From contig NZ_FNKA01000002.1 in NCBI RefSeq assembly GCF_900101335.1, positions 806,001 through 870,000 of the forward strand: 64,000 nt of DNA, read 5' to 3'. The notes under the pieces are model-generated. The model saw nothing but the letters and a program-made list of their open reading frames with translations. It was not told the DNA's origin and did no database searches. Below are positions 39,904 through 58,068 of the stretch, one piece after another; positions within the stretch are counted from its first letter, which is position 1, and each line of letters starts with the position of its first letter. The translations under genes and the position numbers were made by a program. The DNA is from Quadrisphaera sp. DSM 44207 (GTDB lineage: Bacteria > Actinomycetota > Actinomycetes > Actinomycetales > Quadrisphaeraceae).

Positions 39904-40044
39904 TACGCGGGCAGCGCGCTGCCTTGAGCAGGCGGCACAGTCATGGCACCGCCCATCCCCGCGTACGCGGAGAGCACGCGCCGTGGGCCGGGGACGTGGT
40001 CAGCTACCGCGGCTCATCCCCGCGTACGCGGGGAGCACCTGGCG
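39904..40044 (-). repeat. CRISPR trailer-end block, copy 1 (array end)
   Basis: This holds a degenerate repeat half, the last 32-nt spacer-like segment (gctgccttgagcaggcggca...), the degenerate terminal repeat and the first regular spacer. The same ~140 nt recur at 42344-42484. Left of 39904 the sequence is non-CRISPR, so this copy is the true array end. Confidence 0.9.
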
Positions 40045-43000
40045 TGCGTGGGCATGGCCCATCCGCGCCTTGGGCTCATCCCCGCGTACGCGGGGAGCAC
40101 ATCCCCGAGGCCGCCTTCCGAGCCCGCTGCACGGGCTCATCCCCGCGTACGCGGGGAGCACGCCGTGGTCGACGCCGAGGAGTGCACCCTGCGGGGCTCA
40201 TCCCCGCGTACGCGGGGAGCACGTCGTCTACGTCCACGCCGACGACCTCGCCACGGGCTCATCCCCGCGTACGCAGGGAGCACGACGCCCCCGCCAACGT
40301 GCTGTGGGCGGTGGAGGGCTCATCCCCGCGTACGCGGGGAGCACGGATGGTTGGAGGAGAACGGGACCCTGGTCGCGGGCTCATCCCCGCGTACGCGGGG
40401 AGCACTCGAGGGTGGTGCCCGGGGAGGCCAGGGTCACGGGCTCATCCCCGCGTACGCGGGGAGCACTACCCGAGGTGGCGCACCTTGATCCCGGCGGTGG
40501 GCTCATCCCCGCGTACGCGGGGAGCACGAGGTCGTCGTCACCAGCTGCGAGATCGGGGAGGGCTCATCCCCGCGTACGCGGGGAGCACGGGAGGTCGACC
40601 CGGTCCTCGGCGTGGGCGAGGGGCTCATCCCCGCGTACGCGGGCAGCACTACCCGAGGTGGCGCACCTTGATTCCGGCGGTGGGCTCATCCCCGCGTACG
40701 CGGGGAGCACCACCTGCAGGCCGCCGGATGGGTGCGTGACCCCGGCTCATCCCCGCGTACGCGGGGAGCACCCCCCGCCGAGCCAGATGTGCGCGTTCCG
40801 GGGGGGCTCATCCCCGCGTACGCGGGGAGCACTCCCGGGACGCCACCCGGCTGAAGGACCCCGCCGGCTCATCCCCGCGTACGCGGGGAGCACGCGCTGT
40901 ACATCGTCGTCGCCAACGGCTCCAAGGGCTCATCCCCGCGTACGCGGGGAGCACCTCGGACTCGAGGGCGCCGGGGTCAGGGTGGCGGGCTCATCCCCGC
41001 GTACGCGGGGAGCACCGCTGGCTGTGGACCAACGTCCTCGCCCCGGTCGGCTCATCCCCGCGTACGCGGGGAGCACCACGATCGACGAGTGAGCGAGCGA
41101 GCCCACTAGGGCTCATCCCCGCGTACGCGGGGAGCACCCGCCCTTCATCCGCGCGGCCTGCTCCAGGGACGGCTCATCCCCGCGTACGCGGGGAGCACGG
41201 CGTCCGCCGGCGCGCCGAGCGGATCGGCCGCGGCTCATCCCCGCGTACGCGGGGAGCACGAAGGGTCTCCTGTCGGTTGATTTATCGGGCCGGGCTCATC
41301 CCCGCGTACGCGGGGAGCACGTCAGACGCGCCAGCTGGCGCAGCACGCTCTCCGGCTCATCCCCGCGTACGCGGGGAGCACTTCTTCATCCGCCAGACCG
41401 GTGAGATGAACATCGGCTCATCCCCGCGTACGCGGGGAGCACTGGAACCACAGAACCCAACCGGGCTTGTGCTTGGGCTCATCCCCGCGTACGCGGGGAG
41501 CACTACCCCCTCGTACAACGCAACTCCTACAAGGGGGGCTCATCCCCGCGTACGCGGGGAGCACCAGCCGGCGGTCCAGTCCTTCAGCGTCCGGCCGGGC
41601 TCATCCCCGCGTACGCGGGGAGCACTTCGGGGACGCCGTGGACCGCCTCCTGGCCGGCGGCTCATCCCCGCGTACGCGGGGAGCACGGCGTTGCCGCCGC
41701 GGGCCCGGACCGTGCCGCCGGGCTCATCCCCGCGTACGCGGGGAGCACCCCTGCTGGCAGGGCCGCGGCTGCTGCGTGTCGGGCTCATCCCCGCGTACGC
41801 GGGGAGCACCCGTAGGCGGGTGCGCCGTCCCCGATGCCGGCGGGCTCATCCCCGCGTACGCGGGGAGCACGCCGCCCTCCCCGAGGAGGCCGGCCTCGAC
41901 GCCGGCTCATCCCCGCGTACGCGGGGAGCACTACCGCTCCGTGAACGGCAAGCCGCTCAAGAGGGCTCATCCCCGCGTACGCGGGGAGCACTACAGCCCG
42001 CGCGGCAACACGAGCAGCGTCGAGGGCTCATCCCCGCGTACGCGGGGAGCACCGCAAGGTCGGCATGGTCGGCCTCGGCTACCTGGGCTCATCCCCGCGT
42101 ACGCGGGGAGCACCCGAACCTGAGCGGGGACAAGGGGTCGACGTCGGGCTCATCCCCGCGTACGCGGGGAGCACGGGCCGGTGGTCGGCGCGGAAGTGCT
42201 CGACGAGGGCTCATCCCCGCGTACGCGGGGAGCACTCCGCCACGGACTTCGCGCAGGCGATCGTGCAGGGCTCATCCCCGCGTACGCGGGGAGCACTAGG
42301 ACACCCCGACCCGCCAACAGTTGATCCCGGGCTCATCCCCGCGTACGCGGGCAGCGCGCTGCCTTGAGCAGGCGGCACAGTCATGGCACCGCCCATCCCC
42401 GCGTACGCGGAGAGCACGCGCCGTGGGCCGGGGACGTGGTCAGCTACCGCGGCTCATCCCCGCGTACGCGGGGAGCACCTGGCTGCCGGGCTTGGGGAGC
42501 CTGCCGGTGGACGGCTCATCCCCGCGTACGCGGGGAGCACCTCGACCAGCCCGACCCGCCCCTGTCCCCGGCCGGCTCATCCCCGCGTACGCGGGGAGCA
42601 CGCCACTGCCGAGGGGACCCGCACCATGACCCAGGGCTCATCCCCGCGTACGCGGGGAGCACGCTCTGCCGACAAGAGCGCTCAGATCGCTCGGAGGCTC
42701 ATCCCCGCGTACGCGGGGAGCACACCGGGGGGTCGCCGCGGAGGACTCCGACGCCGGCTCATCCCCGCGTACGCGGGGAGCACGCGGCGGACGGCGCGCC
42801 GATGGGCGCGGGCTTGGGCTCATCCCCGCGTACGCGGGGAGCACGACGCCGGCCCCGCCCCGGCCGTGCCGGTGCGGGGCTCATCCCCGCGTACGCGGGG
42901 AGCACTGCGCGCGGTCCAGCCGCAGCCCGACCGGCAGGGGCTCATCCCCGCGTACGCGGGGAGCACTACCCGTCCTGGAGCGCCTACGTCGAAGGGGAGG

Positions 43001-46000
43001 GCTCATCCCCGCGTACGCGGGGAGCACACCTGGGACAGGCCATCGGCGACCGCGCCGAGGGGCTCATCCCCGCGTACGCGGGGAGCACGTTCGCGCTGGC
43101 CAGCGCGATTGACCTGCATCGGGCTCATCCCCGCGTACGCGGGGAGCACGTCGTGGACATGGGCACCACCTCCGAGCTGCGCGGCTCATCCCCGCGTACG
43201 CGGGGAGCACAGCCGCGCCGGGGTCACCGACGCCACACCAGCGGGCTCATCCCCGCGTACGCGGGGAGCACGCGATCGCCGCCGCGGTCGGCGCGCTGAT
43301 CTGGGGCTCATCCCCGCGTACGCGGGGAGCACCGGTTGAAGATCCTCATCCGGCCGTCCCGCTCGGGCTCATCCCCGCGTACGCGGGGAGCACCTGCGCA
43401 AGCGGAAGCAGGCGCAGCCGTGGATGGGCTCATCCCCGCGTACGCGGGGAGCACGTCTCTTCCGTCGACCTGCCCGGGGACAGCCTGGGCTCATCCCCGC
43501 GTACGCGGGGAGCACGCCGGACCCTCCAGGACCCACGTGTCGGCGGTGGGCTCATCCCCGCGTACGCGGGGAGCACCGCTGCCCTCGGCCAGCAGCACGT
43601 GCGCGAGGTCCCTCATCCCCGCGTACGCGGGGAGCACCGAGCGCTGGAGGCGCGCGCGGCGTTGATCCGGGGCTCATCCCCGCGTACGCGGGGAGCACCG
43701 CGGAGGTCATCGCCAACCACCGCCTCGCGGCGGCTCATCCCCGCGTACGCGGGGAGCACGCCGCGGCCTCCGCTGCCCGCGCCCTCGGCGCGGGCTCATC
43801 CCCGCGTACGCGGGGAGCACGAGGGTGCCCACTTCCCGCCGAGGCCGGACCAGGGCTCATCCCCGCGTACGCGGGGAGCACCGAGGAGCCGGCCGCATGA
43901 CCACCGTGTCCATGGGCTCATCCCCGCGTACGCGGGGAGCACCCCTGGAGTCCGGGTGGGGCGCGAACCGGATCGGGCTCATCCCCGCGTACGCGGGGAG
44001 CACCCCCAGGCGAGGTTGCGGCGGGCCTCGGCAGCCGGCTCATCCCCGCGTACGCGGGGAGCACCGCGCCGCGATCGCCGCCGCCGACGGGTGGCTGGGC
44101 TCATCCCCGCGTACGCGGGGAGCACAAGGGCGCCGCCATGCATGCGGCGATGAGGAGGGGCTCATCCCCGCGTACGCGGGGAGCACAACGGCGTCCCCGT
44201 CCTCGCCGGATGGGCCGTGGGCTCATCCCCGCGTACGCGGGGAGCACGTCGCGCAGGTGCTCGCCGAGAAGCACCTCGACGGCTCATCCCCGCGTACGCG
44301 GGGAGCACTTGCCCCACTGCCCCGTGGCGCGGGTGTTTGCGGGCTCATCCCCGCGTACGCGGGGAGCACAACAACAACGCGCTCCCGTTCGGCTCGTTGT
44401 AGGGCTCATCCCCGCGTACGCGGGGAGCACTCGGCCCGAGGCGGCGCCGACTTGAGACCCAGGGGCTCATCCCCGCGTACGCGGGGAGCACGGCGGGCCG
44501 TAAGTGATGGGCAGTGCGGAGGAGGGCTCATCCCCGTGTACGCGGGGAGCACGGCCTGCAGTGGGCGTTCGCCACGGACGCGAACGGCTCATCCCCGCGT
44601 ACGCGGGGAGCACTCCAACCTCGCCCGCGACCGCGGCTTCACCGGCGGCTCATCCCCGCGTACGCGGGGAGCACCCTTTCACGGAGGCGCGCGCGTATAG
44701 CAGCGCGGGCTCATCCCCGCGTACGCGGGGAGCACCCAACCAGGCGGCGCGGGGTGAGCAGGTTCGGGGGCTCATCCCCGCGTACGCGGGGAGCACAAGA
44801 TCCAGGATGAGCAGGAGGTCATCCGGTGGGGCTCATCCCCGCGTACGCGGGGAGCACTCCGAGCCGGCAGCCGGGTAATCCGAGGACCCGGGCTCATCCC
44901 CGCGTACGCGGGGAGCACCGTGGACGAGGACCATCGGGTGATCGCTACCGGGGCTCATCCCCGCGTACGCGGGGAGCACGATGTCGGCGCCACCGGGTCC
45001 GTAGGGCCGCAGGGCTCATCCCCGCGTACGCGGGGAGCACTTGCCCTCGAGCTGGGCGACCTCCTCGGTGAGGGGCTCATCCCCGCGTATGCGGGGAGCA
45101 CCGGGTATGGCAGGCGAACGACTTGGACGGGGAGGGCTCATCCCCGCGTACGCGGGGAGCACGTGGGGCCGACGAAGATCGTGGTCATGACGTCGGGCTC
45201 ATCCCCGCGTACGCGGGGAGCACCTGCTCAACCATCGACAGCAGCAGCGCCTTGTCCGGCTCATCCCCGCGTACGCGGGGAGCACCTAGGTGCCCACCCG
45301 CGCCGCCGGGCACTACGGGGCTCATCCCCGCGTACGCGGGGAGCACATGAGCGCGACCATCCGCACTGAGCACGGTGAGGGCTCATCCCCGCGTACGCGG
45401 GGAGCACGTGCAGGCCACAAGGCTGCGCGCCGCGGAGCTGGGCTCATCCCCGCGTACGCGGGGAGCACCCCTCGGCGAGCTGCCCGAGCAGGTCCCAGGA
45501 GGGCTCATCCCCGCGTACGCGGGGAGCACGACGCCCTCTCCGAGCGGCTGCAGGTGGAGGACGGCTCATCCCCGCGTACGCGGGGAGCACCGCCAGCAGG
45601 ACCGGCAGGGCCGGTGGGTCCGGGGCTCATCCCCGCGTACGCGGGGAGCACCAGGACTTCCACGACCCCCGCCTGGGCCAGCTGGGCTCATCCCCGCGTA
45701 CGCGGGGAGCACACGGGCCAGTCCCTGACCGGCAACGGGCACGCCGGCTCATCCCCGCGTACGCGGGGAGCACCCCCTCCGCCGGCAGCCGAGCGGCTGC
45801 CTCCCGGGCTCATCCCCGCGTACGCGGGGAGCACGTGGGCGGCGCCCGTGACTTCCAGGTCACCGTGGGCTCATCCCCGCGTACGCGGGGAGCACATCGC
45901 CGCGACGCGCCTGGCTGAGGCGGACCTGGGCTCATCCCCGCGTACGCGGGGAGCACGTGGAAGGTGCCGAGGTCGTAGTGGGCGCTGCGGGCTCATCCCC

Positions 46001-48153
46001 GCGTACGCGGGGAGCACGCGCCCCAGCACTCGAGCTCGACGGCGTCCCCGGGCTCATCCCCGCGTACGCGGGGAGCACGACGAGCCGAGGCGGGCACGTC
46101 ACCACATCCCGGGCTCATCCCCGCGTACGCGGGGAGCACAGCACCCCGGAGATCCCGGAGGACAGGGTGCTGGGCTCATCCCCGCGTACGCGGGGAGCAC
46201 TCGAGCGTCGCGTTGGCTCTCACGTTCTCATTAGGCTCATCCCCGCGTACGCGGGGAGCACTCGATGTTGTAGGCGTAGGCGTTGCCGAGGATGGGCTCA
46301 TCCCCGCGTACGCGGGGAGCACTTGGTGCCGAAGGCGTCGGCGAGCTTGTTGAAGGGCTCATCCCCGCGTACGCGGGGAGCACGCGGAGCGCTGCACCGC
46401 GGTGGCGGGGTCGTAGGGCTCATCCCCGCGTACGCAGGGAGCACTGCACCGACGGCGACCCCAGCAAGCACCGCGACGGCTCATCCCCGCGTACGCGGGG
46501 AGCACCCGCTCCTACCTGGCCCTGGACTGGCTGATCCGGGCTCATCCCCGCGTACGCGGGGAGCACAACGGCGTCTACGTCGCTGCGACCGGGGCATGGG
46601 GCTCATCCCCGCGTACGCGGGGAGCACGTCGAGGAGGTCGTCGTACTCGGCGAGGGACAGGGGCTCATCCCCGCGTACGCGGGGAGCACGGGGTGGGCAG
46701 GTTCGGGTTGACGAGGACGGCGGGCTCATCCCCGCGTACGCGGGGAGCACGTCCTGCTCCGCCCGGGCAGCACGGGCGTGGGCGGCTCATCCCCGCGTAC
46801 GCGGGGAGCACAAGGGCAGCGAGTACGCCACGATCCCGGTCCAGGGCTCATCCCCGCGTACGCGGGGAGCACTCGATCCTCGGCGACGAGGACGAGAAGA
46901 TCACGGGCTCATCCCCGCGTACGCGGGGAGCACTGTGCCGCGGCCAGGTCCACGATGCGGCGCAGGGGCTCATCCCCGCGTACGCGGGGAGCACCTGGCG
47001 TACCTGACCTGGGTCGGCGAGCTCGAGGGCTCATCCCCGCGTACGCGGGGAGCACGTGCGGCGCTGCAGCGAGGAGACGTGGGCGCTGGGCTCATCCCCG
47101 CGTACGCGGGGAGCACACAAGGCCAAGGCCGAGAACAAGACGCTGTGCAGGCTCATCCCCGCGTACGCGGGGAGCACATCGACCGCGAGAAGGTCTACGA
47201 GCCGTTCCAGGGCTCATCCCCGCGTACGCGGGGAGCACGCCGCATGGGCGGTGGACAAGAGCGCGGGGACGGGCTCATCCTCGCGTACGCGGGGAGCACG
47301 CCGCATGGGCGGTGGACAAGAGCGCGGGGACGGGCTCATCCCCGCGTACGCGGGGAGCACCGCTTGAGCGCGTAGCGCATCGAGGCGAGGATGGGCTCAT
47401 CCCCGCGTACGCGGGGAGCACCTGCTCGTGCGGCGGCTGCTTCGTTCGGCACGGGGCTCATCCCCGCGTACGCGGGGAGCACCGGGTGATTCCTGCCAGT
47501 GCTCGGAACGCGGCGGGCTCATCCCCGCGTACGCGGGGAGCACGACGGGCAGCTCGCCGCGAACAGCTTCCGGGCGGGCTCATCCCCGCGTACGCGGGGA
47601 GCACCGGCCGTGGCGCTGCATCATGTGCACGGCGGCGGGCTCATCCCCGCGTACGCGGGGAGCACGATGAGACGCTTGTTCGCTCCCACGGTGACACGGG
47701 CTCATCCCCGCGTACGCGGGGAGCACAGGCCCTCGGCGTGCGCGCGGGCGACGTCGAAGGGCTCATCCCCGCGTACGCGGGGAGCACGCGAGCTTGTTGA
47801 AGTTGTCGATGAGGGCACCGGGCTCATCCCCGCGTACGCGGGGAGCACGGGAAGTTCGACGGCGTCCCGACGCTGGCCCTGGGCTCATCCCCGCGTACGC
47901 GGGGAGCACAGCACGGCGTTCATCTGCCCGGCGATGAGGTGGGGCTCATCCCCGCGTACGCGGGGAGCACTACGCGCGCATCAGCCCTCCCTGCCCGCAG
48001 AGGGGCTCATCCCCGCGTACGCGGGGAGCACGTGCCCGGCTGGGAGACCCGCGGCTCGGCCTTGGGCTCATCCCCGCGTACGCGGGGAGCACTTGCCCTC
48101 GGTCTTGGCCTTGGTGATCCAGTACGGCTCATCCCCGCGTACGCGGGGAGCAC
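39950..48153 (-). CRISPR. Type I-E CRISPR array, about 135 repeats and 134 spacers
   Basis: The 28-nt repeat, in transcribed (minus) orientation, begins GTGCTCCCCGCGTACGCGGG and ends GATGAGCC, with a palindromic stem CCCCGCG/CGCGGGG. Spacers are 33 nt (a few 32 or 34), so the unit is 61 nt. Counting the first spacer base as repeat base 29 gives the usual 29/32 split. That base is C in roughly three quarters of spacers and G in about a fifth (hand tally). The leader is at the right, next to cas2; the oldest end is at the left. The terminal repeat 39950-39977 is degenerate, with a further half-degenerate one at 39890-39917. Variant internal repeats are near 40262, 40622, 42330, 43610, 44525, 45073, 46416 and 47272. 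Long open frames here are repeat artefacts. Confidence 0.98.
42344..42484 (-). repeat. CRISPR trailer-end block, copy 2 (inside the array)
   Basis: Identical to 39904-40044 at an offset of 2440 nt, exactly 40 units of 61. The repeat at 42330-42357 is a hybrid. Its left part is the normal consensus and its right part (gggcagcgc) is that of the degenerate terminal repeat. The hybrid marks the crossover that inserted an array end into the interior. Confidence 0.9.
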
Positions 48154-48225
48154 TCTTGCTGAGCTGCAACGACACTGACCGAGGGGCCAGGTCGGCATCA
48201 CTTCTCAATGCACGCGTCAACGTCG
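48154..48225 (-). promoter_or_regulatory. CRISPR leader
   Basis: The 63 nt between the last repeat and the cas2 stop, plus a little of the cas2 end, form the leader by position. It is less GC-rich than its surroundings. A TTGACG (48215-48220, minus) overlapping the cas2 stop could be a -35, but no good -10 follows at 17 nt. The array may also be read from the cas operon. Confidence 0.6.
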
Positions 48226-48561
48226 AGCACGACGGTAGCGGCTCGTCCTGCTCCATCCCGGCCTTGCATCGGCGGGCCTCGCGGACTCGTCGGCCGGGCG
48301 GCGCATGAGGTAGACGCCGTCCACGTCGACGGGCTCCCACTCGTGCCGGTGCACCTTGAAGGCGAGGCGCTGCTCTCCCCGCGTGGCATAGACCATGATC
48401 GCCCGCCCGTCCTTGGCGAGCTCCACCACGCGGTCCCACATCAGGTCCCTGACCCGCGAGGTGAGGACACCGACGAAGACCCCCGGACCGATCTCGAGGA
48501 GCCAGCGCGTCAGGTGACCGCGCAGGCCGGCTGGGCATGCCGTGAGGACGATCACCACCAC
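48217..48561 (-). CDS. cas2: CRISPR-associated endonuclease Cas2, type I-E
   Basis: A ~114-residue Cas2e. It shows VIVLTACPAGLRGHLTRWLL and EIGPGVFVGVLTSRVRDLMW, the diagnostic type I-E Cas2 segments, plus GRAIMVYATRGEQRLAFKVH and a longer C-terminal tail. Cas2 dimers bridge Cas1 dimers in the spacer-integration complex. Three consecutive GTG codons (48561, 48558, 48555) could start it; 48561 fits the family's N-terminus, and 48555 would overlap the cas1 stop by 4 nt. It is the last cas gene and abuts the leader. Confidence 0.93.
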   Translation of the reverse strand: MVVIVLTACPAGLRGHLTRWLLEIGPGVFVGVLTSRVRDLMWDRVVELAKDGRAIMVYATRGEQRLAFKVHRHEWEPVDVDGVYLMRRPADESARPADARPGWSRTSRYRRARR

Positions 48562-49505
48562 GGTTCGTCGTCCCCGTAGCTGGCGCCGCCTGCGACGCGC
48601 CCGCGGGCGCCGTCCCACAGCTGCACCACGTCGATGTCCGGTTGAACCTCGTCAGGCTCCTCACCCGGCAGGAGGAGGCTGCGGATGTCGCGCGCGCACC
48701 GGCTCAGGATCGCGCCGTCGTGCACAGCGTCGCGGACGGCGCGGCGCGTCTCGGCAGGCAGGTCCTCGGTCTCGCGGACTGCGACGTCGAAGGCCACCGG
48801 GACGGCGACCTCGGCCTTGTACAGGTCGGCGATGTCGAAGACGAAGGAGCGGACGTGCCCGGTGTGCACGAAGCCGAGCCCGGGTGAGCACCCGAGGGCC
48901 ACGACGACGGCGTGGACGATGCCGTACAGGCACGTGGTCGCGGCCGACAAGGCCTGGTTCACCGCGTCACCGGAGGCGAAGTCCGCCACGTCGTAGTCCC
49001 GACGCTGCCACTCGACCCCGGTCCGCGCGGCGTGCTCCCGGTAGAGCCGGCGCACCCGGGCCCCTTCACGCCCCCGCAGCTGCTGCATGGTCAACGCCGA
49101 CACGTCCTCGTCCGGGAAGCGCATGGCGTACATGTCACGAGCGACGCGCAAGCGCGAGGACTGGTTCGTCACCGCTGCCGCCTGCGCCTCCAGGAGCCGG
49201 GACGACCGGGCGAGGGAGCGGCCGTGCGCGTAGTAGCGGACACCCCGCTCCCCCACCCACACCGCTGTGGACCCGCTCTCCGCCAGGAGGACCATCGCCT
49301 GGTGGCTGACGCTGGTGCCGGGTCCCAGCAGCAGCGCGCCGAGAGACGCCGCTGGCACGTGGACCGTCCCGCGCTCATCGGTGGCGGTGATGGCGTTGGC
49401 GTCCCGGTGGACGACGCACCGCTCCAGGTACAGGAAGCTGAGTCGGTCCTCCGCGCGGACGAGCTCGTTGAGCTTCGGCGGCGGCGTGCCCGGTACCGGC
49501 TTCAT
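48552..49505 (-). CDS. cas1: CRISPR-associated integrase Cas1, type I-E
   Basis: A 317-residue Cas1e. Its N-terminal beta domain (NELVRAEDRLSFLYLERCVV, VHVPAASLGALLLGPGTSVS) precedes the helical catalytic domain with REGARVRRLYREHAARTGVE, the conserved His/Asp segment GFVHTGHVRSFVFDIADLYK, and ETRRAVRDAVHDG. It catalyses spacer integration at the leader-proximal repeat with Cas2. ATG 49505 is chosen because it overlaps the cas6 stop as ATGA, with a typical Cas1e beginning right after it. Confidence 0.95.
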   Translation of the reverse strand: MKPVPGTPPPKLNELVRAEDRLSFLYLERCVVHRDANAITATDERGTVHVPAASLGALLLGPGTSVSHQAMVLLAESGSTAVWVGERGVRYYAHGRSLARSSRLLEAQAAAVTNQSSRLRVARDMYAMRFPDEDVSALTMQQLRGREGARVRRLYREHAARTGVEWQRRDYDVADFASGDAVNQALSAATTCLYGIVHAVVVALGCSPGLGFVHTGHVRSFVFDIADLYKAEVAVPVAFDVAVRETEDLPAETRRAVRDAVHDGAILSRCARDIRSLLLPGEEPDEVQPDIDVVQLWDGARGRVAGGASYGDDEPWW

Positions 49506-50170
49506 GGCACAGGAGCCAGCGTGAGCAGGCCGCATCCGTAGCCCTTGGCCCGGCCGACGCCGCGGACCAGTGCAGTCCTCAGGGCGTCAGGGTCGAGGAC
49601 TTCCAGAACGCCGTCGAAGGTCGCCATGGCCACGGTGACCGTCTTGCCCTGCCGCGTGAAGCGCGCCGTCCGCCGGTCGCGGACGACGACGCCGGGCTCG
49701 CCTCGTGCTCCTGCGGCGACGTGGAACCCCAGACGCTCGGTGCGGTCGATCAACCACTGCTGCTGCTGCGCGGCGGTGACGTGCGCCAGCGGCTTGGTGT
49801 CTTCGCCGTCCCGGACCCTGGCGCTGTGGACGGGGTTGGCCGTGAGGCGGAAGACCCACCGCTGGCCGGCCTGCACCCGGTACAGCAGCGGTCGGTAGTC
49901 ACGGGTCTGCCACGTCTGCGTCGCGGGCCACCCCGCCTGCTCCACCAGGTGCGTCAGGTCGGGTTGGGTCGGGCTGGCCAGGTACAGGTCCGCCCTGTGC
50001 TGCTCTCCTCGGTCGACTCTCCAGAGGACCCTGCCGTCCTGGGCGGCACCGGACGCCGCTCCCGGAGGGAAGGCGGCCAGGACGGCTGCGTGCATGGCCT
50101 GCGGGGAGGCCAGCAGCGTCCAGCTCCCTCGACGAGCTGGGTTGATCGCGAACCGCGTCAGGTACATCAC
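49502..50170 (-). CDS. cas6e: CRISPR RNA endonuclease Cas6e (CasE)
   Basis: A 222-residue Cas6e that cuts pre-crRNA at the repeat stem and stays bound as a Cascade subunit. Family features are MYLTRFAINPARRG with an early catalytic-type Arg/His region, RVLWRVDRGEQHRADLYLAS, WVFRLTANPVHSAR, and the C-terminal Gly-rich loop GVGRAKGYGCGLLTL. Two adjacent Met codons could start it. The ATG overlaps the cas5 stop. Confidence 0.93.
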   Translation of the reverse strand: MMYLTRFAINPARRGSWTLLASPQAMHAAVLAAFPPGAASGAAQDGRVLWRVDRGEQHRADLYLASPTQPDLTHLVEQAGWPATQTWQTRDYRPLLYRVQAGQRWVFRLTANPVHSARVRDGEDTKPLAHVTAAQQQQWLIDRTERLGFHVAAGARGEPGVVVRDRRTARFTRQGKTVTVAMATFDGVLEVLDPDALRTALVRGVGRAKGYGCGLLTLAPVP

Positions 50171-50874
50171 GCGCCTCCGAGCGCAGCGAGGAAATCCACC
50201 CGGGAGCGGGCCCCCGGAGCGGCGTCCGTGTTCGTGATCCGTGCCGGCTCACCGTGGACGACGGTGCGCCATCCGTACTCCCTGCGCTCGGGGTCGTAGC
50301 TGATCGGCTGGTCGCGGACGAGGTCACCGGGCTCCGCCGGGTCCGCAGCGTCGCGGACGATCGGCAGGTCTAGCCGGGGCCCCTGGCGCTTCCGCCACCA
50401 CAGCGCCGCCTGCCACGGCTCACCCTGCAGCACCTCCTGCAGGCCGCCCTCGCGGACGCCCAGGCTGACCTGCCCCGAGGGGGGACAGGATCGCCGGCCC
50501 AGGAACAGCGGGAACACTGGCGCTCGCAGCGCTTCGTCGAGCCCGTGCAGCAGTGACGGACCCCCTTCCACTCCGGCGAGGAAGACGGCGTCCGCGAGGT
50601 AGAAGCGGTAGGACAGGGGCATCGTGCGTGTGCCGTCCAGGCTGCGCGCGGTCTGGAAGTCGCGGACGAGGCGGCCGGGCTGATCCACCCGCACACCGAA
50701 GGAGGTGCGCGCCAGGTCCTCGACCGGGTCGGTCCGTCGACGGCCCTCGGCAGCAGCCAGCAGGCCGAGGACGCCGCTCTTGGTCGGCTCGTGACGCGTC
50801 TCGCGACGGACGAACCGGCTGGCGGCCCCCCACGACTGCAGCGGCGCCGCCAGGCGCAGGAGCAGGACGCTCAT
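50167..50874 (-). CDS. cas5e: Cascade subunit Cas5e (CasD)
   Basis: A 235-residue RAMP protein that caps the crRNA 5' handle. It begins MSVLLLRLAAPLQSWGAASR, the classic Cas5 N-terminus, then FVRRETRHEPTKSGVLGLLAAAEG, RFYLADAVFLAGVEG and VFPLFLGRRSCPPSG. The start overlaps the cas7 stop by 4 nt. Confidence 0.95.
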   Translation of the reverse strand: MSVLLLRLAAPLQSWGAASRFVRRETRHEPTKSGVLGLLAAAEGRRRTDPVEDLARTSFGVRVDQPGRLVRDFQTARSLDGTRTMPLSYRFYLADAVFLAGVEGGPSLLHGLDEALRAPVFPLFLGRRSCPPSGQVSLGVREGGLQEVLQGEPWQAALWWRKRQGPRLDLPIVRDAADPAEPGDLVRDQPISYDPERREYGWRTVVHGEPARITNTDAAPGARSRVDFLAALGGA

Positions 50875-52025
50875 ACGGCTGCCCCGGCGCGGTCGCGCAC
50901 CTGGTCGCCGACCGCTGTCACGAGGTCGTCGATCCCGACGACCTCTCCCAGTGCCTCCAGCGGTTCGGTCGCCGTGCCCACTCGCACGACCCAGCTGGCC
51001 ACGGGCGCACCGCCGTAGGCGTCGTCGACATCGCGGCTGTGCTGCGCCAGTCGAGCGGCGGCCTGCGCGAGCCGGCCGCCGGCCTCACCCGCGCGGACAG
51101 CGTCCTCGAAGGCACCCACCAGGTTCACGGGCTGCTTCTCGCGGACCTGCACCAGCACCGCATCAGGCAGGGTGCGGTGGGCGAACGTGTTCTGCTTGCC
51201 GGTCGGCATGCTCGTGACGAAAGCGCGGAGGAACGCCTCGACGGCTGCTGACGTGGCGTCCGCGTCACCGTCCGCACCGGCGAGGCTCCTGCGCAGGGCG
51301 TCGACGTCGACGGTCGCGTACCGGTACAGGGTCGAGGAGTTGAACTCCACCGTGCCGATCATGCCCGCCCCGGCGTTGTCCTCCGGCGCTCGATCGTCCA
51401 CGGCCGTGAAGTAGTCGAACTCGTTGTCGACGGCGTGGACGCTGATGGCGTGGGCCACCTGCGCGGCGGCGTCCACGTTGATGTCCGTGGCGTCAGCGAC
51501 CATCCGACCGAACAGCGCCACGTCGACGCTGTGGCTGGAGTCCGCAGCGGCCTTGGCGGCGCTAGCACTGACCTTCGTGCCGGATCCTGCGGCCTCCACC
51601 GCCAAGCGTGCCAAGTTCTGCACCTGTCGCCGGCTGAGGAAGATCAAGTAGCTTGACTGCGCCACTTCGTCCTTCGCGTCATCGCTGTCCTTGCGCTTCC
51701 TCTCGGGCCTCTTCAGCTCGAGCTTCGGCATGGCGGCGTTGAGGACTGCGACAGCATGCTTCTGCGGCTCGTCCAGGTCGGGCGACAACGCCACGATCTC
51801 CTCGGTCACGAGCTCGACCACGCGCTTGGTGCGAACGCCGAGCTGGTCGCGGTCCAGCAGCTCGTCGAAGGCCTTGCGGGTGGCACGCTTCCACGCCTGG
51901 CTGGAGACGCGGGCCCGACGGACCCCGCCGTAGTAGGCGGTCTTGGGGCTGCCGGTGTCGTCGCGGTTGAGGTTGCTCGGGGGCACGGTCTGCAGCACGT
52001 GGACGTCGAGGAAGGTGCGCGGCAT
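50871..52025 (-). CDS. cas7e: Cascade backbone subunit Cas7e (CasC/Cse4)
   Basis: A 384-residue Cas7e that forms the six-copy crRNA backbone. Hallmarks are FLDVHVLQTVPPSNLNRDDT, PKTAYYGGVRRARVSSQAWK, SVDVALFGRMVADATDINVD, HAVDNEFDYFTAVDD and TSMPTGKQNTFAHRTLPDAV. It starts at ATG 52025, overlapping the cse2 stop by 1 nt. A Lys/Arg-rich insertion near residues 105-120 (LELKRPERKRKDSDDAKD) is likely a surface loop. Confidence 0.96.
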   Translation of the reverse strand: MPRTFLDVHVLQTVPPSNLNRDDTGSPKTAYYGGVRRARVSSQAWKRATRKAFDELLDRDQLGVRTKRVVELVTEEIVALSPDLDEPQKHAVAVLNAAMPKLELKRPERKRKDSDDAKDEVAQSSYLIFLSRRQVQNLARLAVEAAGSGTKVSASAAKAAADSSHSVDVALFGRMVADATDINVDAAAQVAHAISVHAVDNEFDYFTAVDDRAPEDNAGAGMIGTVEFNSSTLYRYATVDVDALRRSLAGADGDADATSAAVEAFLRAFVTSMPTGKQNTFAHRTLPDAVLVQVREKQPVNLVGAFEDAVRAGEAGGRLAQAAARLAQHSRDVDDAYGGAPVASWVVRVGTATEPLEALGEVVGIDDLVTAVGDQVRDRAGAAV

Positions 52026-52666
52026 CACTGCTCTCCTGTCGTGGTCGAGGCGTCGAGGTCTTCGGGGCGCGTCGCCCGGTGGTAGTCCCGTCCCCAGGCC
52101 AGACGGACGCGGTCGGCGGTGCGCGGGTCCTGGAGCCGGCGCAGGTCTCGGGCGAGGCGGCCGTAGTCCAGGGGGATGCCAGCGGCGCGGAACTGGGTCA
52201 CCAGACCCCGCAGGTGGTGCAGGGCCTCCGCGAACGACGACGCGGTGCCCAGCGCGTGGAACCGCCGCCGCACCGCTTCGTCCGCCCCCGTGCGCTGACC
52301 GAGCTGCCGGACGGCGGAGCCCACGCCCTGATCGGCACGGTGCATGTCGGTGGTCTGGGACTGCTGGTGGAGCGCGAACACCGTGATCGCCGAGTGGGCT
52401 GCCCGCTCGTAGGCGGACGGCTCGTCGCCGCGACCCATCAGCGGCTCGGGCAGGCCGGCCAGGGTCTCGGCCCACACAGCGGGGTCGGCGCCAGGGTCCG
52501 TGGTCACGGCCCGGCGCAGGCGGGCCAGTGCTCCCACCGCGGCGGACCGGTCGGCCCGGTACCCGGCCTGCAGGGCGGCCACGCGAGCGCCGACGTACCG
52601 CTCCAGCTGCTCGTCCCTGCTGCCGGGAGGCGCTCCTGCAGCCGCTGGCGGCCTCACCGTGCTCAT
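52025..52666 (-). CDS. cse2: Cascade small subunit Cse2 (CasB)
   Basis: A 213-residue helical protein with Cse2 features: DRSAAVGALARLRRAVTTDP, ERAAHSAITVFALHQQSQTT, RRRFHALGTASSFAEALHHL, and GIPLDYGRLARDLRRLQDP near the end. Two copies bridge the crRNA backbone and stabilise the R-loop. ATG 52666 overlaps the cse1 stop as ATGA. Confidence 0.93.
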   Translation of the reverse strand: MSTVRPPAAAGAPPGSRDEQLERYVGARVAALQAGYRADRSAAVGALARLRRAVTTDPGADPAVWAETLAGLPEPLMGRGDEPSAYERAAHSAITVFALHQQSQTTDMHRADQGVGSAVRQLGQRTGADEAVRRRFHALGTASSFAEALHHLRGLVTQFRAAGIPLDYGRLARDLRRLQDPRTADRVRLAWGRDYHRATRPEDLDASTTTGEQ

Positions 52667-54348
52667 CGGGTGCTCCTCTCCTCGACGATCTCGTCGCCGG
52701 CGGCGTCGGCGTGTGCGGAGCTCGGTCCGGCCGCGAGCACGAGCGCTCTGCGCAGGGCCGCGAGGAACCAGGCCTCGGCCAGGGCCGAGGTGACGTGGTG
52801 TCCGCGCACCTCGCGGCCGACCCACGCCGGCGAGCCGGCGTCAGCGAGGAGCTCGTCACCGATGACGCGCACCGCGTGCCACACGAACCGCTCCCAGGCC
52901 TCGCGTCGCTGCTGCGGATCCACGCTCGGCTCCAGGGAAGCGAGCCAGAGCCGGTAGGGGGCGTCGAGGACGAAGTACGCCTGCTCCCTCGCCCGGTCGC
53001 GCGGCCCCTCAGGCTCACCTCCGGCGGCCGCTGCGAGGTTGCCGGCGAGGTTCGCGAGTGCGAGGGCGGCAGCGTCCGCGGCGCCGACAGCGTCGATGGC
53101 GGCGCGCCGCAGCTCCCGTCCCTCGTGGCCGAGCAGGACGGCGTGGACGAGCAGCGCGTCGTCCACGATCTCGTCGATGACCGAGCTGTTGCTGCCGTAC
53201 CGGACACCGATGGCGCGAGTGCGCACGCTGTAGCGATCGGACAGGTGCTCCTTGTCGCGCAGGAGAGCGAGCCAGTCCAGCACCGCTGGCGCGAGGTCCC
53301 GTGACGCGTCACCGGGCGTGCCGCCTCGTTCCGTCTGCGGTAGCAGAGCGGGCAGTCCTCGCCACAGGGCCCGCTCGGGTTGGTGAGTCCGGGGCATGTA
53401 GACCGGTGACTTCTTGACGGTCCTCTCCTGCGCCTCGCTGCGCCGCCAGGCGGTCATCGTCTCCAGCAGGTGCTGGTTCTGAGGCCGCAACGGGTCGCCG
53501 TTGGCGATGAGCACTCCGGTGACCGCGTCGCCGTCCCGCAGCAGGCGGATGCGCCGGCTCTGCCAGGTCAGCAGGTCGGCGGGACCACCGGGATGGCGGC
53601 CCTCGGCTTCCACCGCCGGGCCGTGGGGCGCTCGCTCCCACACCGCGGTGTCGCTCGCGGACCACGGCTGCTCGTCGCGGTCGACCAGGACGAGGTTCAG
53701 GAGCAGGGTCTCGAGCAGGTCGGCCCCCTCGACCAGCAGGCCGCCGAGCTGGCCGGACCACCCAGTGCCGATCGGGTAGCCCTTGCCGCCCTTGACCCGT
53801 GGGTCCCCCACGGCGCCGGACTTGATGCCGGAGGGGTCGAAGGCCTGGGCGTGCACCAGCCAGCGCGCTGCCTCCGCGAGGCCGATGCTCCGCAGGCTCC
53901 GCCCGGCGCGCGTGGTGAAGTACTGGGCGTTGTTCGGCACATCGGCGATCAGGGACGTCAGGCCCGAGGCCCCGTCCTTGGCCGTGCGCAGGTCGGCGAC
54001 CTGGAAGAAGGGCGTCGTGGGCGAGAGCAGGTCGAAGCGCTCGGCGTGCCCCTCGAGGTGGGCCCGGACGTGCTCGGCGAGATCGACCTCCCCGTTCCAG
54101 GCCGCAGCCCAGTGGGCGACCGGGTCGTCCCGGTCCCACGGCACCGCCCGGTGCAGGAGGGCGAGCAGCAGGCGGTACAGGGCGACGCCCTGCGTGGGCA
54201 CCTCACCGGTAAGCCCCTGCAGCTCGCGGGCCCGCACGAAGGCGTCCAGGAGCGAGACCCCCTCGAGGTCCCCGGCCAGGGTCCGCACGAGCAGCCACGG
54301 CTGCGTGCGCAGGTCGAACGTCGTGCCGTCAGCCGTCGCGTGGGACAT
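52663..54348 (-). CDS. cse1: Cascade large subunit Cas8e (CasA/Cse1)
   Basis: A 561-residue Cse1, which recognises the PAM and recruits Cas3. Features are FDLRTQPWLLVRTLAGDLEG, ERFDLLSPTTPFFQVADLR, and NNAQYFTTRAGRSL from the L1 region that contacts the crRNA handle and PAM. HAQAFDPSGIKSGAVGDPRV and a C-terminal four-helix bundle (REAWERFVWHAVRVIGDELL) follow. ATG 54348 overlaps the cas3 stop by 1 nt (TGATG). PAM preference cannot be read from the protein, but array data suggest AAC/AAG. Confidence 0.96.
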   Translation of the reverse strand: MSHATADGTTFDLRTQPWLLVRTLAGDLEGVSLLDAFVRARELQGLTGEVPTQGVALYRLLLALLHRAVPWDRDDPVAHWAAAWNGEVDLAEHVRAHLEGHAERFDLLSPTTPFFQVADLRTAKDGASGLTSLIADVPNNAQYFTTRAGRSLRSIGLAEAARWLVHAQAFDPSGIKSGAVGDPRVKGGKGYPIGTGWSGQLGGLLVEGADLLETLLLNLVLVDRDEQPWSASDTAVWERAPHGPAVEAEGRHPGGPADLLTWQSRRIRLLRDGDAVTGVLIANGDPLRPQNQHLLETMTAWRRSEAQERTVKKSPVYMPRTHQPERALWRGLPALLPQTERGGTPGDASRDLAPAVLDWLALLRDKEHLSDRYSVRTRAIGVRYGSNSSVIDEIVDDALLVHAVLLGHEGRELRRAAIDAVGAADAAALALANLAGNLAAAAGGEPEGPRDRAREQAYFVLDAPYRLWLASLEPSVDPQQRREAWERFVWHAVRVIGDELLADAGSPAWVGREVRGHHVTSALAEAWFLAALRRALVLAAGPSSAHADAAGDEIVEERSTR

Positions 54349-57197
54349 CAGCGCTCCTCACCGGTGGTCGTCACGAGCAGTCCGCGGTCGCGGTGGTACT
54401 CCAGCCGGTGGCCTGGCAGCTCAGCCGACAGGTCGGCGTCCAGCTCCAGGACGAGCTGGCCGGACAGCCAGTGCGAGTCCTGCCATCCCGGGTACCAGGT
54501 CTTCTCCAGGGCCCTGATCACCGCGTCCGCGTGACGGCCGTTGGACAGGTGGACCGGCAGCCGCAGCGTGCAGGTCGCCGCCGCGCGCGCGACGTCGTCG
54601 CCGGGTCGGAACTCGGTGGGGATCGCCTGACCGGCGTGGTCGGTCGTCCACGGCAGGAGCCGCACAACGCCGTCCACCCGGTGGACGACGACGACCTCGA
54701 TGCCGTCCTCGCTGTCGCGGACCTGCCCCTGGCCCTGCGGGGTGTCGTCCGTCTCCCCGGCGGACCCCTGCAGCCACCCGACCAGCGACTCACCCGTCCT
54801 CTTCACCGGACCGAGCTGGAACTCGCGCGCCCTTCTGTCCTGATCCGCCTCGCGCTCGACTCGTCGAGCTTCAGCGTCGGCGTAGACCTGCTCCCATCCG
54901 TCCGGGGGCACGAGGTCCTGGGCGTAGGCCGCCTGGACGAGCGGCGCGATGTCACCGGGGAGGTCGAGGTGTCCTCGCTCGAAGCGGTCCTCGAGCACGG
55001 CGAGGGACCTCAGGAGCGGCGCGCGGTGGTACACGGTCTCGGAGCCGCGCACGAGCACCGGTGGTCGCGCCGTCCAGTCGGACACGCCGGTCACGAGGCA
55101 CCGAGGCTGCCGCACGGACGCTGGCCGCTCGCTCTGGTCCTGTCCTCGCTCGTGCCGGTGCAGCCGCCCGAGGCGCTGCAGCACGAGATCCACCGGGGCG
55201 AGGTCGGTCACCATGAGGTCGAGGTCGACATCGAGGGACTGCTCGATCACCTGGGTGCCCACGACGACGACGCGCTCCGGGCGCCGTCGACCGGCGGCCG
55301 CCACCGTCTGCGGCGGGCCCAGGCGCTGCAGGAGCTCCCGCTCGCGGGTGGCGCGGTCGACGGCGATGAACCGGGAGTGCAGCAGGAGCACTTCGCAGTC
55401 CAGCCGCTCACGCAGCAGGTCGTACGTGGCCTGAGCGCGACCGACGGTGTTGCGGACGACCGCTGCGCACCCGCCGCCAGCGAGGGCCTCGGTCAAGACC
55501 GCCAGGAGCGACTCGTCGTCGTCGGCGAGCCTCTGCAACCGGACTCGCTGCGTGCGGGCGCCGTCCCGAGGCACCTCGACCTGCGGCACGCCTCCGGTGG
55601 ACGCCGTGATGACCGGGTACCCGACGTCCCCGTCGAGCACGTCGTAGGCCGCCTCCGCCACTCGTGGACCGCGACCAGCGACCGTGCGGCCCCGGTCGTA
55701 GGCGGCGACGAGGGCGCGGCGCTGGGCAGCTGGCAGGGTGGCCGAGAGCACCACGGTCGGCACGCCGTAGGCGCCCAGCCAGTGCAGGACCCGATGCAGG
55801 TAGCTGCCCATGAAGACGTCGACGGCGTGGACCTCGTCGATGACGACGACCTTGCTCACGAGCGCCAGGTGGCGCAGCGCCAGGTGGCGGCTGCGCAGGG
55901 CGGCGAACAGGACCTGGTCGATGGTGCCGACCACGAAGGACGACAGCGGTCCCTTCTTCCGGCCGCGCAGCCAGGCGTGGGCGATGGCCGTGGCCCGCTG
56001 GTGGCCTCCGCCGCCGCTCGAGTCCTCGTCCGGTGCCACCGCGGCAGGACCGCCGGTGCGCCACAACTCCTGCGCCTCGGAGTTGAGCGCCGCCTTGCCG
56101 TGCGCCAGGAACAGGGTGAGGTCGGCGTCCGGGCCTTCGACGGGCAGGCGCTGCACCCACCGACGCACCCTGCTGAACATCGCGTCGGACGTCGCCATGG
56201 TGGGCAGGGCCACGAAGACCCCTCCGGCGCCGACGCGATGGGCGAAGACCTCCGCCGCGGCGAGGGCCGCCTCGGTCTTGCCCACCCCCATCCGGTCCTC
56301 GATCACGAGCAGTCCCGGTACCTCGGCGTTGCGAGCGGCGACCACCGCGGCGCGCTGCACCGGTCGCAGGCTCGCACCCGCCGGGAGGTCGAAGCGGTCG
56401 GAGAACAGGTGGTCGTCGTCCTCGGGTGGCGCCTCCGGGTGCCACTGCGCCGGCAGGTCCAGGTCAGTCCATGCAGCGGCAGCCCGCTCGAGGGAGGACC
56501 GGTGCTCGCCGTACGGAAAGAGGTCGCGGTTGCTGGCGAGCCAGTCCGCCACGATGACGGCCGCGCTGAGGAGCACCTGAGCGGGATAGGGCAACGGCGT
56601 CTGCGACCACACCGGTAGTCGGTCGGCCACGCAGGTCAGCCTCGTCATGTGGTCGAGCAGCTCGTCCTGCACCGAGACCCATGCGTCGCGGCCGATGAGG
56701 CTGCTGCGCTCGGCAGCCGCCTGCAAGTGTCCGCGCTCGGGCGGGGAGCCGTGGTGGCCACCCACGATGACCGCGTACGTGCTCGCGACGCGCCGACTCC
56801 ACCCTGACGCCTGCAACCACCGGGTGAGCACGAGCTGACCTGCCATGTCGTGACGCAGGAGCGCCCGGTCGGCTAGGACGGGAGGCATGTCCAACCCCGC
56901 CGCCCTCATGCGTGCGGTCAGGTACGGAGCCTGCTTCTCGACTTGGACAGCGAACGCCGGAGTCGCCTTGCCGATGTCATGGACTCCGGCGAGCCACGTC
57001 AGGAGCAGCCGACCGTCCGCGTCACCACCGGGGAGGGCCTGAGTGATCTCGTAGCGCACTGCCGTGGGGAGCCACCGGTCCCAGAGGAGGCCAGCCACCG
57101 CCGCGGAATCATGGAGGTGCTGGGGCAGTGACAGCCATGCGTCGTCCTCGGGGCTGGACTTGGCCCACACGCTCTGCGCTGCTGTGCTCAGCTCCAT
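54348..57197 (-). CDS. cas3: CRISPR-associated helicase/nuclease Cas3
   Basis: A 949-residue Cas3 with fused domains. The N-terminal HD nuclease has HLHDSAAVAG, the HD pair in LAGVHDIGKATPAFA, RHDMAGQ, and GGHHGSPP. The SF2 helicase has Walker A DRMGVGKTE, DEVH box VVIDEVHAVDVF, LSATLPAAQR and motif VI VLQRLGRLHRH, with TQVIEQSLDVDLDLMVTDLA before it. A C-terminal domain follows (LPVHLSNGRHADAVIRALEK). It degrades DNA opened by Cascade. ATG 57197 is chosen over GTG 57224 because GGAGG stands 6 nt before it. First gene of the cas operon. Confidence 0.96.
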   Translation of the reverse strand: MELSTAAQSVWAKSSPEDDAWLSLPQHLHDSAAVAGLLWDRWLPTAVRYEITQALPGGDADGRLLLTWLAGVHDIGKATPAFAVQVEKQAPYLTARMRAAGLDMPPVLADRALLRHDMAGQLVLTRWLQASGWSRRVASTYAVIVGGHHGSPPERGHLQAAAERSSLIGRDAWVSVQDELLDHMTRLTCVADRLPVWSQTPLPYPAQVLLSAAVIVADWLASNRDLFPYGEHRSSLERAAAAWTDLDLPAQWHPEAPPEDDDHLFSDRFDLPAGASLRPVQRAAVVAARNAEVPGLLVIEDRMGVGKTEAALAAAEVFAHRVGAGGVFVALPTMATSDAMFSRVRRWVQRLPVEGPDADLTLFLAHGKAALNSEAQELWRTGGPAAVAPDEDSSGGGGHQRATAIAHAWLRGRKKGPLSSFVVGTIDQVLFAALRSRHLALRHLALVSKVVVIDEVHAVDVFMGSYLHRVLHWLGAYGVPTVVLSATLPAAQRRALVAAYDRGRTVAGRGPRVAEAAYDVLDGDVGYPVITASTGGVPQVEVPRDGARTQRVRLQRLADDDESLLAVLTEALAGGGCAAVVRNTVGRAQATYDLLRERLDCEVLLLHSRFIAVDRATRERELLQRLGPPQTVAAAGRRRPERVVVVGTQVIEQSLDVDLDLMVTDLAPVDLVLQRLGRLHRHERGQDQSERPASVRQPRCLVTGVSDWTARPPVLVRGSETVYHRAPLLRSLAVLEDRFERGHLDLPGDIAPLVQAAYAQDLVPPDGWEQVYADAEARRVEREADQDRRAREFQLGPVKRTGESLVGWLQGSAGETDDTPQGQGQVRDSEDGIEVVVVHRVDGVVRLLPWTTDHAGQAIPTEFRPGDDVARAAATCTLRLPVHLSNGRHADAVIRALEKTWYPGWQDSHWLSGQLVLELDADLSAELPGHRLEYHRDRGLLVTTTGEER

Positions 57198-57247
57198 CGC
57201 CGCCTCCAGACGACCGCAAGCCACTGTCGGACCTGATCCGTACCGTT

Positions 57248-57276
57248 GCGATACGTCCGGTCACTCAGCGCAGCAA
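57248..57276 (-). promoter_or_regulatory. Candidate cas operon promoter
   Basis: On the minus strand TTGCTG (57271-57276) and TATCGC (57248-57253) are 17 nt apart, placing transcription start near 57241, about 45 nt before the cas3 ATG. The match is moderate. The pseudo-spacer target described below lies 30-60 nt upstream of the -35. A GGGACT-TC-AGTCCC palindrome (57301-57314) lies between them. Confidence 0.4.
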
Positions 57277-57305
57277 AGCAGACTCCCGCCTCCCTGGATA
57301 GGGAC

Positions 57306-57340
57306 TGAAGTCCCCCTCTCCCTCCCCCTTGGTGCATGTT
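57306..57340 (-). promoter_or_regulatory. Putative self-target (PAM plus protospacer) of the crRNA-like element
   Basis: The minus strand reads AAC (57338-57340) then ATGCACCAAGGGGGAG. The first 8 bases match the pseudo-spacer at 57383-57402 exactly, and 14 of the first 16 match. AAC is the PAM inferred from two overlapping array spacers. Complementarity stops after position 16, a pattern that permits Cascade binding without full interference in known cases. Confidence 0.55.
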
Positions 57341-57354
57341 GGTCTGCGCCGAGC

Positions 57355-57434
57355 AGGAAAGCCCCGCGTGCGCGGGGAACATGCAGCTCCGCCCTGGTGC
57401 ATCGGATCACCCCCGCGGTCGTGGCGGGGACGTC
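57355..57434 (-). ncRNA. CreR/CreA-like crRNA-type RNA: two degenerate repeats around a 20-nt pseudo-spacer
   Basis: On the minus strand there is a first pseudo-repeat (about 57403-57434) with stem CCCCGC/GCGGGG and enlarged loop, ending GTGATCCG (array handle ATGAGCC plus C/G). The pseudo-spacer ATGCACCAGGGCGGAGCTGC (57383-57402) follows. A second pseudo-repeat (57355-57382) keeps the full CCCCGCGCACGCGGGG stem. The latter matches the array repeat at 18 of 21 core positions. It is far from the array, directly upstream of cas3, and the pseudo-spacer targets the DNA between itself and cas3. By analogy with known crRNA-like regulators it would guide Cascade to repress the cas operon. No promoter for it was confidently found. 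Confidence 0.6.
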
Positions 57435-57647
57435 GGTCCAGCTGCACGTAGAGGGTGTCACGGCGCAGCCGGCAGCCTTCTCGAGCCTGCCTCGTCGAGG
57501 CGCATCCAGCGGGCTGTGAAGACATCCCGCCGAGGGACCGTCGTCGCCGGGCCTGCTGCGTGGTGGTCCTGCCGGTCGCCGGGCGTCCGACCGCGAACCG
57601 GGCGTGCAAGATCACCGCGGGAAGGCGCAGGCTCCTAGGCTGCGCCG
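57435..57647. other. Intergenic stretch upstream of the crRNA-like element
   Basis: About 210 nt between the crRNA-like element and a decayed plus-strand gene. It should contain the element's promoter (minus) and the old promoter of the pseudogene (plus). No clear -35/-10 pair, repeat or gene was recognised. Confidence 0.4.
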
Positions 57648-58068
57648 ATGAGCGACGTCGTCGACACCATCCGCGACCTCACCGCCGACCAGCGCACCGA
57701 GACCCTCGTGGCGACGCTGCTGGACGCACACCACCCTGCGCGGGCAGGGCTGGGTGGTCGCCGAGGTCTCCCTCCACGAGGCGGACCTGGACTGGTCGGC
57801 GCTGACCGAGCCCGACGAGGTCGCGGGCGTCCTCGACCTCCTCGGCCGGGCCACCGCGAAGATCCACTGCGTCTCGGACGAGGGCAGCGACCAGGCCCTG
57901 GTGCGCTTCTAGACCGAGGAGGCGGTCAGCGACGTCGTCGACGCCAGCCCCGGCGGGGACGACGGCTTCGTCGACTTGGTCGACGTCGGCCTCTCCTGCG
58001 GCCAGCTCGTGCGCGACGACTCCCGGCTGTTCGTCGCCTTCCGCGACGGGCGCGTCCCGGGGCTGTGA
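57648..58068 (+). pseudogene. Decayed gene, possibly a DUF2252 fragment
   Basis: An ATG frame (MSDVVDTIRDLTADQRTETL, then VATLLDAHH) shifts by one base near 57734 into LRGQGWVVAEVSLHEADLDW and TEPDEVAGVLDLLGRATAKI, then HCVSDEGSDQALVRF. There a TAG (57910-57912) stands where Gln would fit before TEEAVSDVV. The frame continues to DDSRLFVAFRDGRVPGL and a stop at 58068. The KIHCVSDEGSDQ...LFVAFRDG pattern recalls the C-terminus of DUF2252 proteins, but I am not certain. Frameshift, internal stop and missing N-terminal bulk mark it as broken. Confidence 0.5.

Follow-up and report, generated by a model that had tools for sequence, protein, structure and literature searches.

What does a lone pair of degenerate CRISPR repeats do immediately ahead of a type I-E cas operon? 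In the window (the whole 64 kb stretch of DNA analysed here) NCBIfam models assign the genes from cas3 to cas2e to a type I-E operon, in agreement with the first-pass annotation, whose figure of 134 array crRNAs likewise agrees with the 134 spacers counted here among 135 repeats (Table 1). That annotation had also described, upstream of cas3, a crRNA-like unit with a target between itself and the operon, and had compared it to CreR. Having examined the locus together with its counterparts in other genomes, we posit that the unit very probably encodes a guide of the CreR type. Such a guide would bring Cascade to a site upstream of cas3, and the Cas proteins would thereby repress their own operon.

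Control of this type is itself already known. CreR (Liu et al. 2023, Cell Host Microbe), in the accounts given by citing papers, has been described for I-B, I-E and V-A systems and proposed as a sensor of crRNA abundance and of anti-CRISPRs (PMC13131331, PMC12737573, PMC12948488), so that the comparison drawn in the annotation was right (PMC13131331). As in those accounts, the unit would encode a crRNA-like mini-CRISPR RNA that is partly complementary to sequence ahead of the cas operon to which it belongs. It departs from CreR as described there in the degeneracy of its two repeats and in a guide of 20 nt, and its expression and repressive action are predictions from sequence.

Table 1. Window coordinates of the pseudo-CRISPR unit, its target, the cas operon and the main array
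Feature	Coordinates	Strand	Remarks
psi-repeat 1	57404..57431	-	GTCCCCGCCACGACCGCGGGGGTGATCC; folds as hairpin
psi-repeat 2	57355..57382	-	ATGTTCCCCGCGCACGCGGGGCTTTCCT; 3' hairpin TTCCCCGCGCACGCGGGG
pseudo-spacer, 20 nt	57383..57402	-	ATGCACCAGGGCGGAGCTGC; between the two psi-repeats
target (protospacer)	57322..57337	-	ATGCACCAAGGGGGAG; psi unit on one side, cas3 on the other
PAM AAC adjoining target	57338..57340	-	precedes target
cas3	54348..57197	-	TIGR01587, TIGR01596 above cut-off; first gene of operon, presumed controlled gene
cas8e (cse1)	52663..54348	-	TIGR02547
cas11 (cse2)	52025..52825	-	TIGR02548; listed ORF, real start probably more internal
cas7e	50871..52025	-	TIGR01869; 5' end approximate
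cas5e	50167..50874	-	TIGR01868
cas6e	49502..50170	-	TIGR01907
cas1e	48552..49535	-	TIGR03638
cas2e	48217..48618	-	TIGR01873
main CRISPR array	39950..48153	-	135 repeats, 134 spacers, PAM AAC; 3' of cas2

The pseudo-CRISPR unit, its target and the PAM

The two degenerate repeats reported around a 20-nt pseudo-spacer are indeed present, each with 8 of 28 positions mismatched to the array repeat GTGCTCCCCGCGTACGCGGGGATGAGCC, which served as reference, and psi-repeat 2 lies about 160 nt from the cas3 ATG (57197). The hairpin of psi-repeat 1 (CCCCGC/GCGGGG) has a lengthened loop, and this repeat contributes the 5' handle GTGATCC together with one further base; psi-repeat 2 has a 3' hairpin with a fold energy of -12.1 kcal/mol and a degenerate handle of its own (CTTTCC). 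A single base, 57403, separates psi-repeat 1 from the pseudo-spacer and equates to the PAM-derived 29th nucleotide of normal units; array spacers extend 31-33 nt beyond that base, and the pseudo-spacer is 12 nt, or two Cas7 steps, shorter. As CCG precedes the pseudo-spacer, the unit presents no PAM of its own.

The target begins a few bases 3' of psi-repeat 2. On re-deriving the alignment we recovered the claimed match of the first 8 bases, and of 14 of 16 overall, to the AAC-preceded site, the mismatches falling at positions 9 and 12; with the flipped positions 6 and 12 omitted, 13 of 14 readable positions match. That AAC is the PAM of this system, also an earlier claim, is backed by three agreeing lines: the overlapping array spacers 5/29 and 23/55, the presence of C at base 29 in 103 of the 134 array units, and an array spacer identical to a gene of the Streptomyces phage Thestral, where AAC flanks it. 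When both strands of the window were scanned, this target was the sole AA-PAM site with at least 11 of 14 readable positions matched, and the 3.2 Mb genome has no second copy of its PAM-plus-seed pattern AANATGCANCANGG. A control of 2.38 Mb of other loci yielded no sites at 13 or more and four at 11 or more, with about 0.001 expected per 740 nt. Thus, the locus shares with CreR a mini-CRISPR of two repeat-like units and a spacer accompanied by cognate type I-E effector genes, and a partial, PAM-proximal complementarity with the correct PAM upstream of its own cas operon.

Solitary repeat units borne by mobile elements are known to act as decoys of the RNA anti-CRISPR (Racr) type that sequester Cas proteins (PMC10651486), and the psi-repeats might be taken for such mimics. 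This reading is extremely improbable: the unit sits in the cas locus rather than being a mobile-element mimic devoid of a matched target, its target is both matched and PAM-flanked, and a PAM-matched guide-target pair before cas3 in many lineages is unexpected of a decoy.

A further alternative is that the guide serves a second type I-E system or takes part in cross-regulation with it. The same genome has a second effector operon (cas3, cse1, cse2, cas7, cas5, cas6e; contig C1, L220:3400-15250) with its own array of 45 repeats (GCCGTCCCCATGCACGTGGGGGTGATCC), and the handle of that repeat, GTGATCC, is that of psi-repeat 1, giving 7/7 identity versus 5/7 to the cognate array. The psi-repeat 2 hairpin, which would be the part read and kept by Cas6e, nevertheless has the closer likeness to the cognate repeat, at 8 mismatches against 12, and handles one or two bases off those of their own arrays are seen in other genomes too, which weakens the assignment of psi-repeat 1. 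Our detector found no trio of psi-repeats, spacer and target before the cas3 of the second operon. We consider an involvement of the second system unlikely. That the psi handle and the handle of the cognate array disagree at 2 of 7 bases counts against the proposed CreR-type function.

Recurrence and covariation in other genomes

We surveyed 188 non-redundant cas3 upstream regions, mainly of Actinomycetota, with a detector that called an RTGRNCC handle followed 16-39 nt on by a GTGYTCCCC-like start, and took as target the best AA-PAM match to spacer bases 1-16 in the same region, positions 6 and 12 being ignored; as a control, spacers were swapped onto the cas3 upstream regions of other genomes. 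At a threshold of at least 12/14 there were 32 candidates against 0.40 with swapped spacers, at most four of the 32 being repeat artefacts (28-30 without these), and at 13/14 or more there were 19 against 0.05, up to three of which are repeat artefacts. Upon lifting the PAM condition, AA was present in 23 of 27 strong matches, the other four being duplicated array spacers. The set accepted for the comparisons below comprises 35 trios with scores of at least 11/14, drawn from partly related genomes and curated by removing six artefacts (L076, L087 on the minus strand, L125, L031, L112 and L120), in which the supposed target was repeat, array or gene sequence.

Within the order, 24 of 54 cas3 loci have a trio, three of them (L148, L150, L204) detected at relaxed thresholds only. 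No member sampled from the window's own family has this cas3, and the conservation of the guide-target match, another trait of CreR, is seen in relatives from the order and class. These comparisons across many genomes support Cascade-guided self-control as a common feature of actinobacterial type I-E systems. No convincing trio was recovered at clostridial cas3 loci by this detector, which was built on repeat ends of the actinobacterial type. A Thermomicrobiales MAG of the Chloroflexota (L105) has a candidate trio about 365 nt before cas3, and the arrangement may therefore extend outside Actinomycetota. In Microbacterium suaedae (L006/L049) a psi unit about 270-360 nt before cas3 is followed by a second, intact repeat, the sequence of which is unlike that of the nearby array repeat; strain YZYP 306 (L049) is among the trio carriers.

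The targets lie about 60-190 nt from the cas3 start in most relatives. This placement bears on the idea that the unit is a CreA-like antitoxin guide, repressing a toxin, either a small RNA or a peptide, from the gap of about 125 nt between target and cas3, with control of cas3 being incidental. CreA guides are built alike, and the toxin CreT is itself a small RNA (PMC12737573); yet, in the window, no gene besides cas3 is evident after the target, and the proximity of targets to cas3 in most relatives also speaks against such a toxin. We hold this version to be very unlikely, though a very short toxin RNA might still fit into the gap.

Covariation is clearest in the congeners L203 and L204, which are alignable through the psi unit and the target. 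Between them the spacer changes from ATGCGATGC to GTGTAGTGC and the target from ATGCGTTGC to GTGTATTGT, with seed positions 1, 4 and 5 altered in both alike and position 6 in the spacer only. In another pair (L016 and L208) the spacers are identical, and the sole target difference within positions 1-12 is at position 6. The first-pass annotation had set co-varying seeds among relatives in favour of its reading and independent drift against it: we find three seed positions changed on both sides in the former pair, and the opposite of independent drift at about 35 loci, which have matched but differing pairs in numbers far above the swapped control. Such seed covariation is evidence of selection on the guide-target pairs.

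The match profile and the lengths of the guides

Across the 35 trios, matching is high at positions 1-5 and 7-11 (1-5, 7 and 8 being nearly invariant, in part due to the selection of the trios), drops to 5/35 (14%) at position 6 and 8/35 (23%) at position 12, and is near background from position 17 on; positions 6, 12 and those from 17 on played no part in trio selection. As every sixth base is unpaired in the E. coli type I-E system (PMC13122317), the lack of matching at positions 6 and 12 bears the signature of a Cascade guide. The low value at position 6 is all the more worthy of note because this position is matched in 45% of E. coli off-target sites (PMC5904413). Together, these comparisons indicate that constraint is confined to the positions that Cascade reads.

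The psi-repeats, as aligned across the trios, decay asymmetrically and retain the parts used in a crRNA: in psi-repeat 1 the handle is preserved and the 5' end lost, psi-repeat 2 shows the converse, and the stems remain paired. The detector selected for the psi-repeat 1 handle and the start of psi-repeat 2, and the loss of the opposite halves is an unselected observation. These patterns are pertinent to the alternative that we are looking at a decayed mini-array, or a spacer accidentally taken from the DNA upstream of the operon, with no present function. The degeneracy of both repeats and the shortness of the spacer are what it would lead one to expect. Against it stand the covariation of seeds in congeners, the retention of the psi-repeat 1 handle and psi-repeat 2 hairpin while unused parts decayed, and the existence of some 35 trios matched at readable positions and independent at 6 and 12, a combination not to be expected of either a recent copy or decay. 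We accordingly regard it as highly improbable.

The flipped positions of the target have a bias of their own. Position 6 is A or T in 32 of 34 targets (background 51%, p = 6e-8 with trios treated as independent; chance sites give 49%). For position 12 the figure is 27 of 34 (p = 6e-4, on the same treatment). Counted over 35 trios, A occupies position 6 in 23 and T does so in 10, and pairing offers no explanation for this since the base is flipped out. The guide is GC-richer than the target at both positions, and the window's own target, with C at position 6, is an exception. The preference amounts to a testable rule on how Cascade reads DNA.

Guide lengths likewise fall into steps, with 14 of 34 trio spacers being 20-21 nt long, 2 being 26-27 nt and 13 being 32-33 nt; 29 of the 34 deviate by no more than one base from 20, 26 or 32 (p = 1e-8 when compared with a flat range, trios treated as independent). 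The matched stretch is alike in short- and long-spacer trios. The relation L = 6N - 4, linking spacer length to Cas7 number, has been given for type I-F1 (PMC7296934), and if carried over would equate guides of 20, 26 and 32 nt with four, five and six Cas7 subunits. We found no description of the length steps or of the A/T rule in the literature covered, in which Liu 2023 and Shmakov 2023 are represented through citing papers; both the A/T rule for flipped positions of the target and the short guides stepped by 6 nt may be new. We tentatively suggest, as a conjecture somewhat short of even likelihood, that actinobacterial type I-E CreRs have a code of their own, in which guides come in Cas7 steps (20, 26, 32 nt), mini-Cascades with four Cas7 subunits act as dedicated repressors, and unmatched A/T at positions 6 and 12 marks regulatory as opposed to immune sites. 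If short guides do form four-Cas7 complexes, they would be natural templates for repression-only Cascade tools.

Proposed mechanism and comparison with known systems

In the mechanism that we favor, the psi-repeat/spacer/psi-repeat unit would be transcribed as a crRNA-like guide, and Cas6e would cut both degenerate hairpins to leave the handle GUGAUCCG, the 20-nt guide and the psi-repeat 2 hairpin. By the rule of 6 nt per Cas7, this guide is predicted to assemble a short Cascade with four Cas7 subunits, which would dock at the AAC-flanked target lying ahead of cas3, on the 3' side of the psi unit, with about 13 readable positions paired. Such pairing would be above what Cascade needs for binding and below what is needed for recruitment of Cas3. 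The bound complex would then block transcription of cas3 and the rest of the operon, thereby repressing its own production, and array crRNAs or inhibitors that draw Cascade away may lift this repression.

About 5 bp suffice for Cascade binding in E. coli, and interference and priming require more than 18 bp (PMC5904413); in Haloarcula, spacers of up to 24 bp repress without cutting (PMC10989794). Pairing over about 13 positions therefore fits a bind-only guide; being long enough to bind by the E. coli figures and too short to cut or prime, such a match explains how a guide can safely target its own genome. Two observations run counter to this: type I-E Cascade shortened by 6-12 nt can still license slow Cas3 cleavage of matched targets (PMC7296934), and weak off-target binding in E. 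coli left transcription unchanged (PMC5904413).

The promoter is the weak point of the repression reading, because no sigma-70-like promoter was recognised in 57150-57700 of the window and the excess of overlaps in relatives is modest, with targets overlapping the best predicted promoter in 11 of 34 cases versus 6.1 under uniform placement. In four relatives (L003, L004, L012, L209) good promoter matches reach into or directly adjoin the target, and in several with strong -35/-10 boxes the target is over, or just upstream of, the -35 box.

Regulatory mini-arrays derived from CRISPRs, mostly of type I and with a spacer partly matching cas promoters, have reportedly been described by Shmakov et al. 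2023 (NAR gkad495). Going by that description, the present unit resembles them in being a stand-alone repeat pair with a spacer. It is also akin to CreA of the CreTA system of Haloarcula hispanica (type I-B), a crRNA-like RNA that, as a seed-only guide (11 bp, PMC10989794), represses without interference, but CreA silences a toxin gene and the neighbour here is cas3. A more distant parallel is the natural single-guide tracrRNA of type II-A systems (Workman 2021, cited in PMC10651486), in which a natural guide reportedly likewise directs the effector to repress its own operon; it works with Cas9 and a long tracrRNA, in contrast to Cascade and a mini-CRISPR here.

The main array displays some features of its own. 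In its 132 distinct spacers, positions 3, 6, 9, 12, 15 and 18 are occupied by G or C in 85-92% of cases, and the spacers seem to have been taken up in the coding frame, with the AAC PAM as a sense-strand Asn codon. The spacer at 44796-44829 is identical to the immunity-repressor gene of the Streptomyces phages Thestral and TinaBelcher. The identical or near-identical spacer pairs 13/14, 93/133 and 122/125 (numbered from 48153 downwards) suggest duplication or repeated acquisition.
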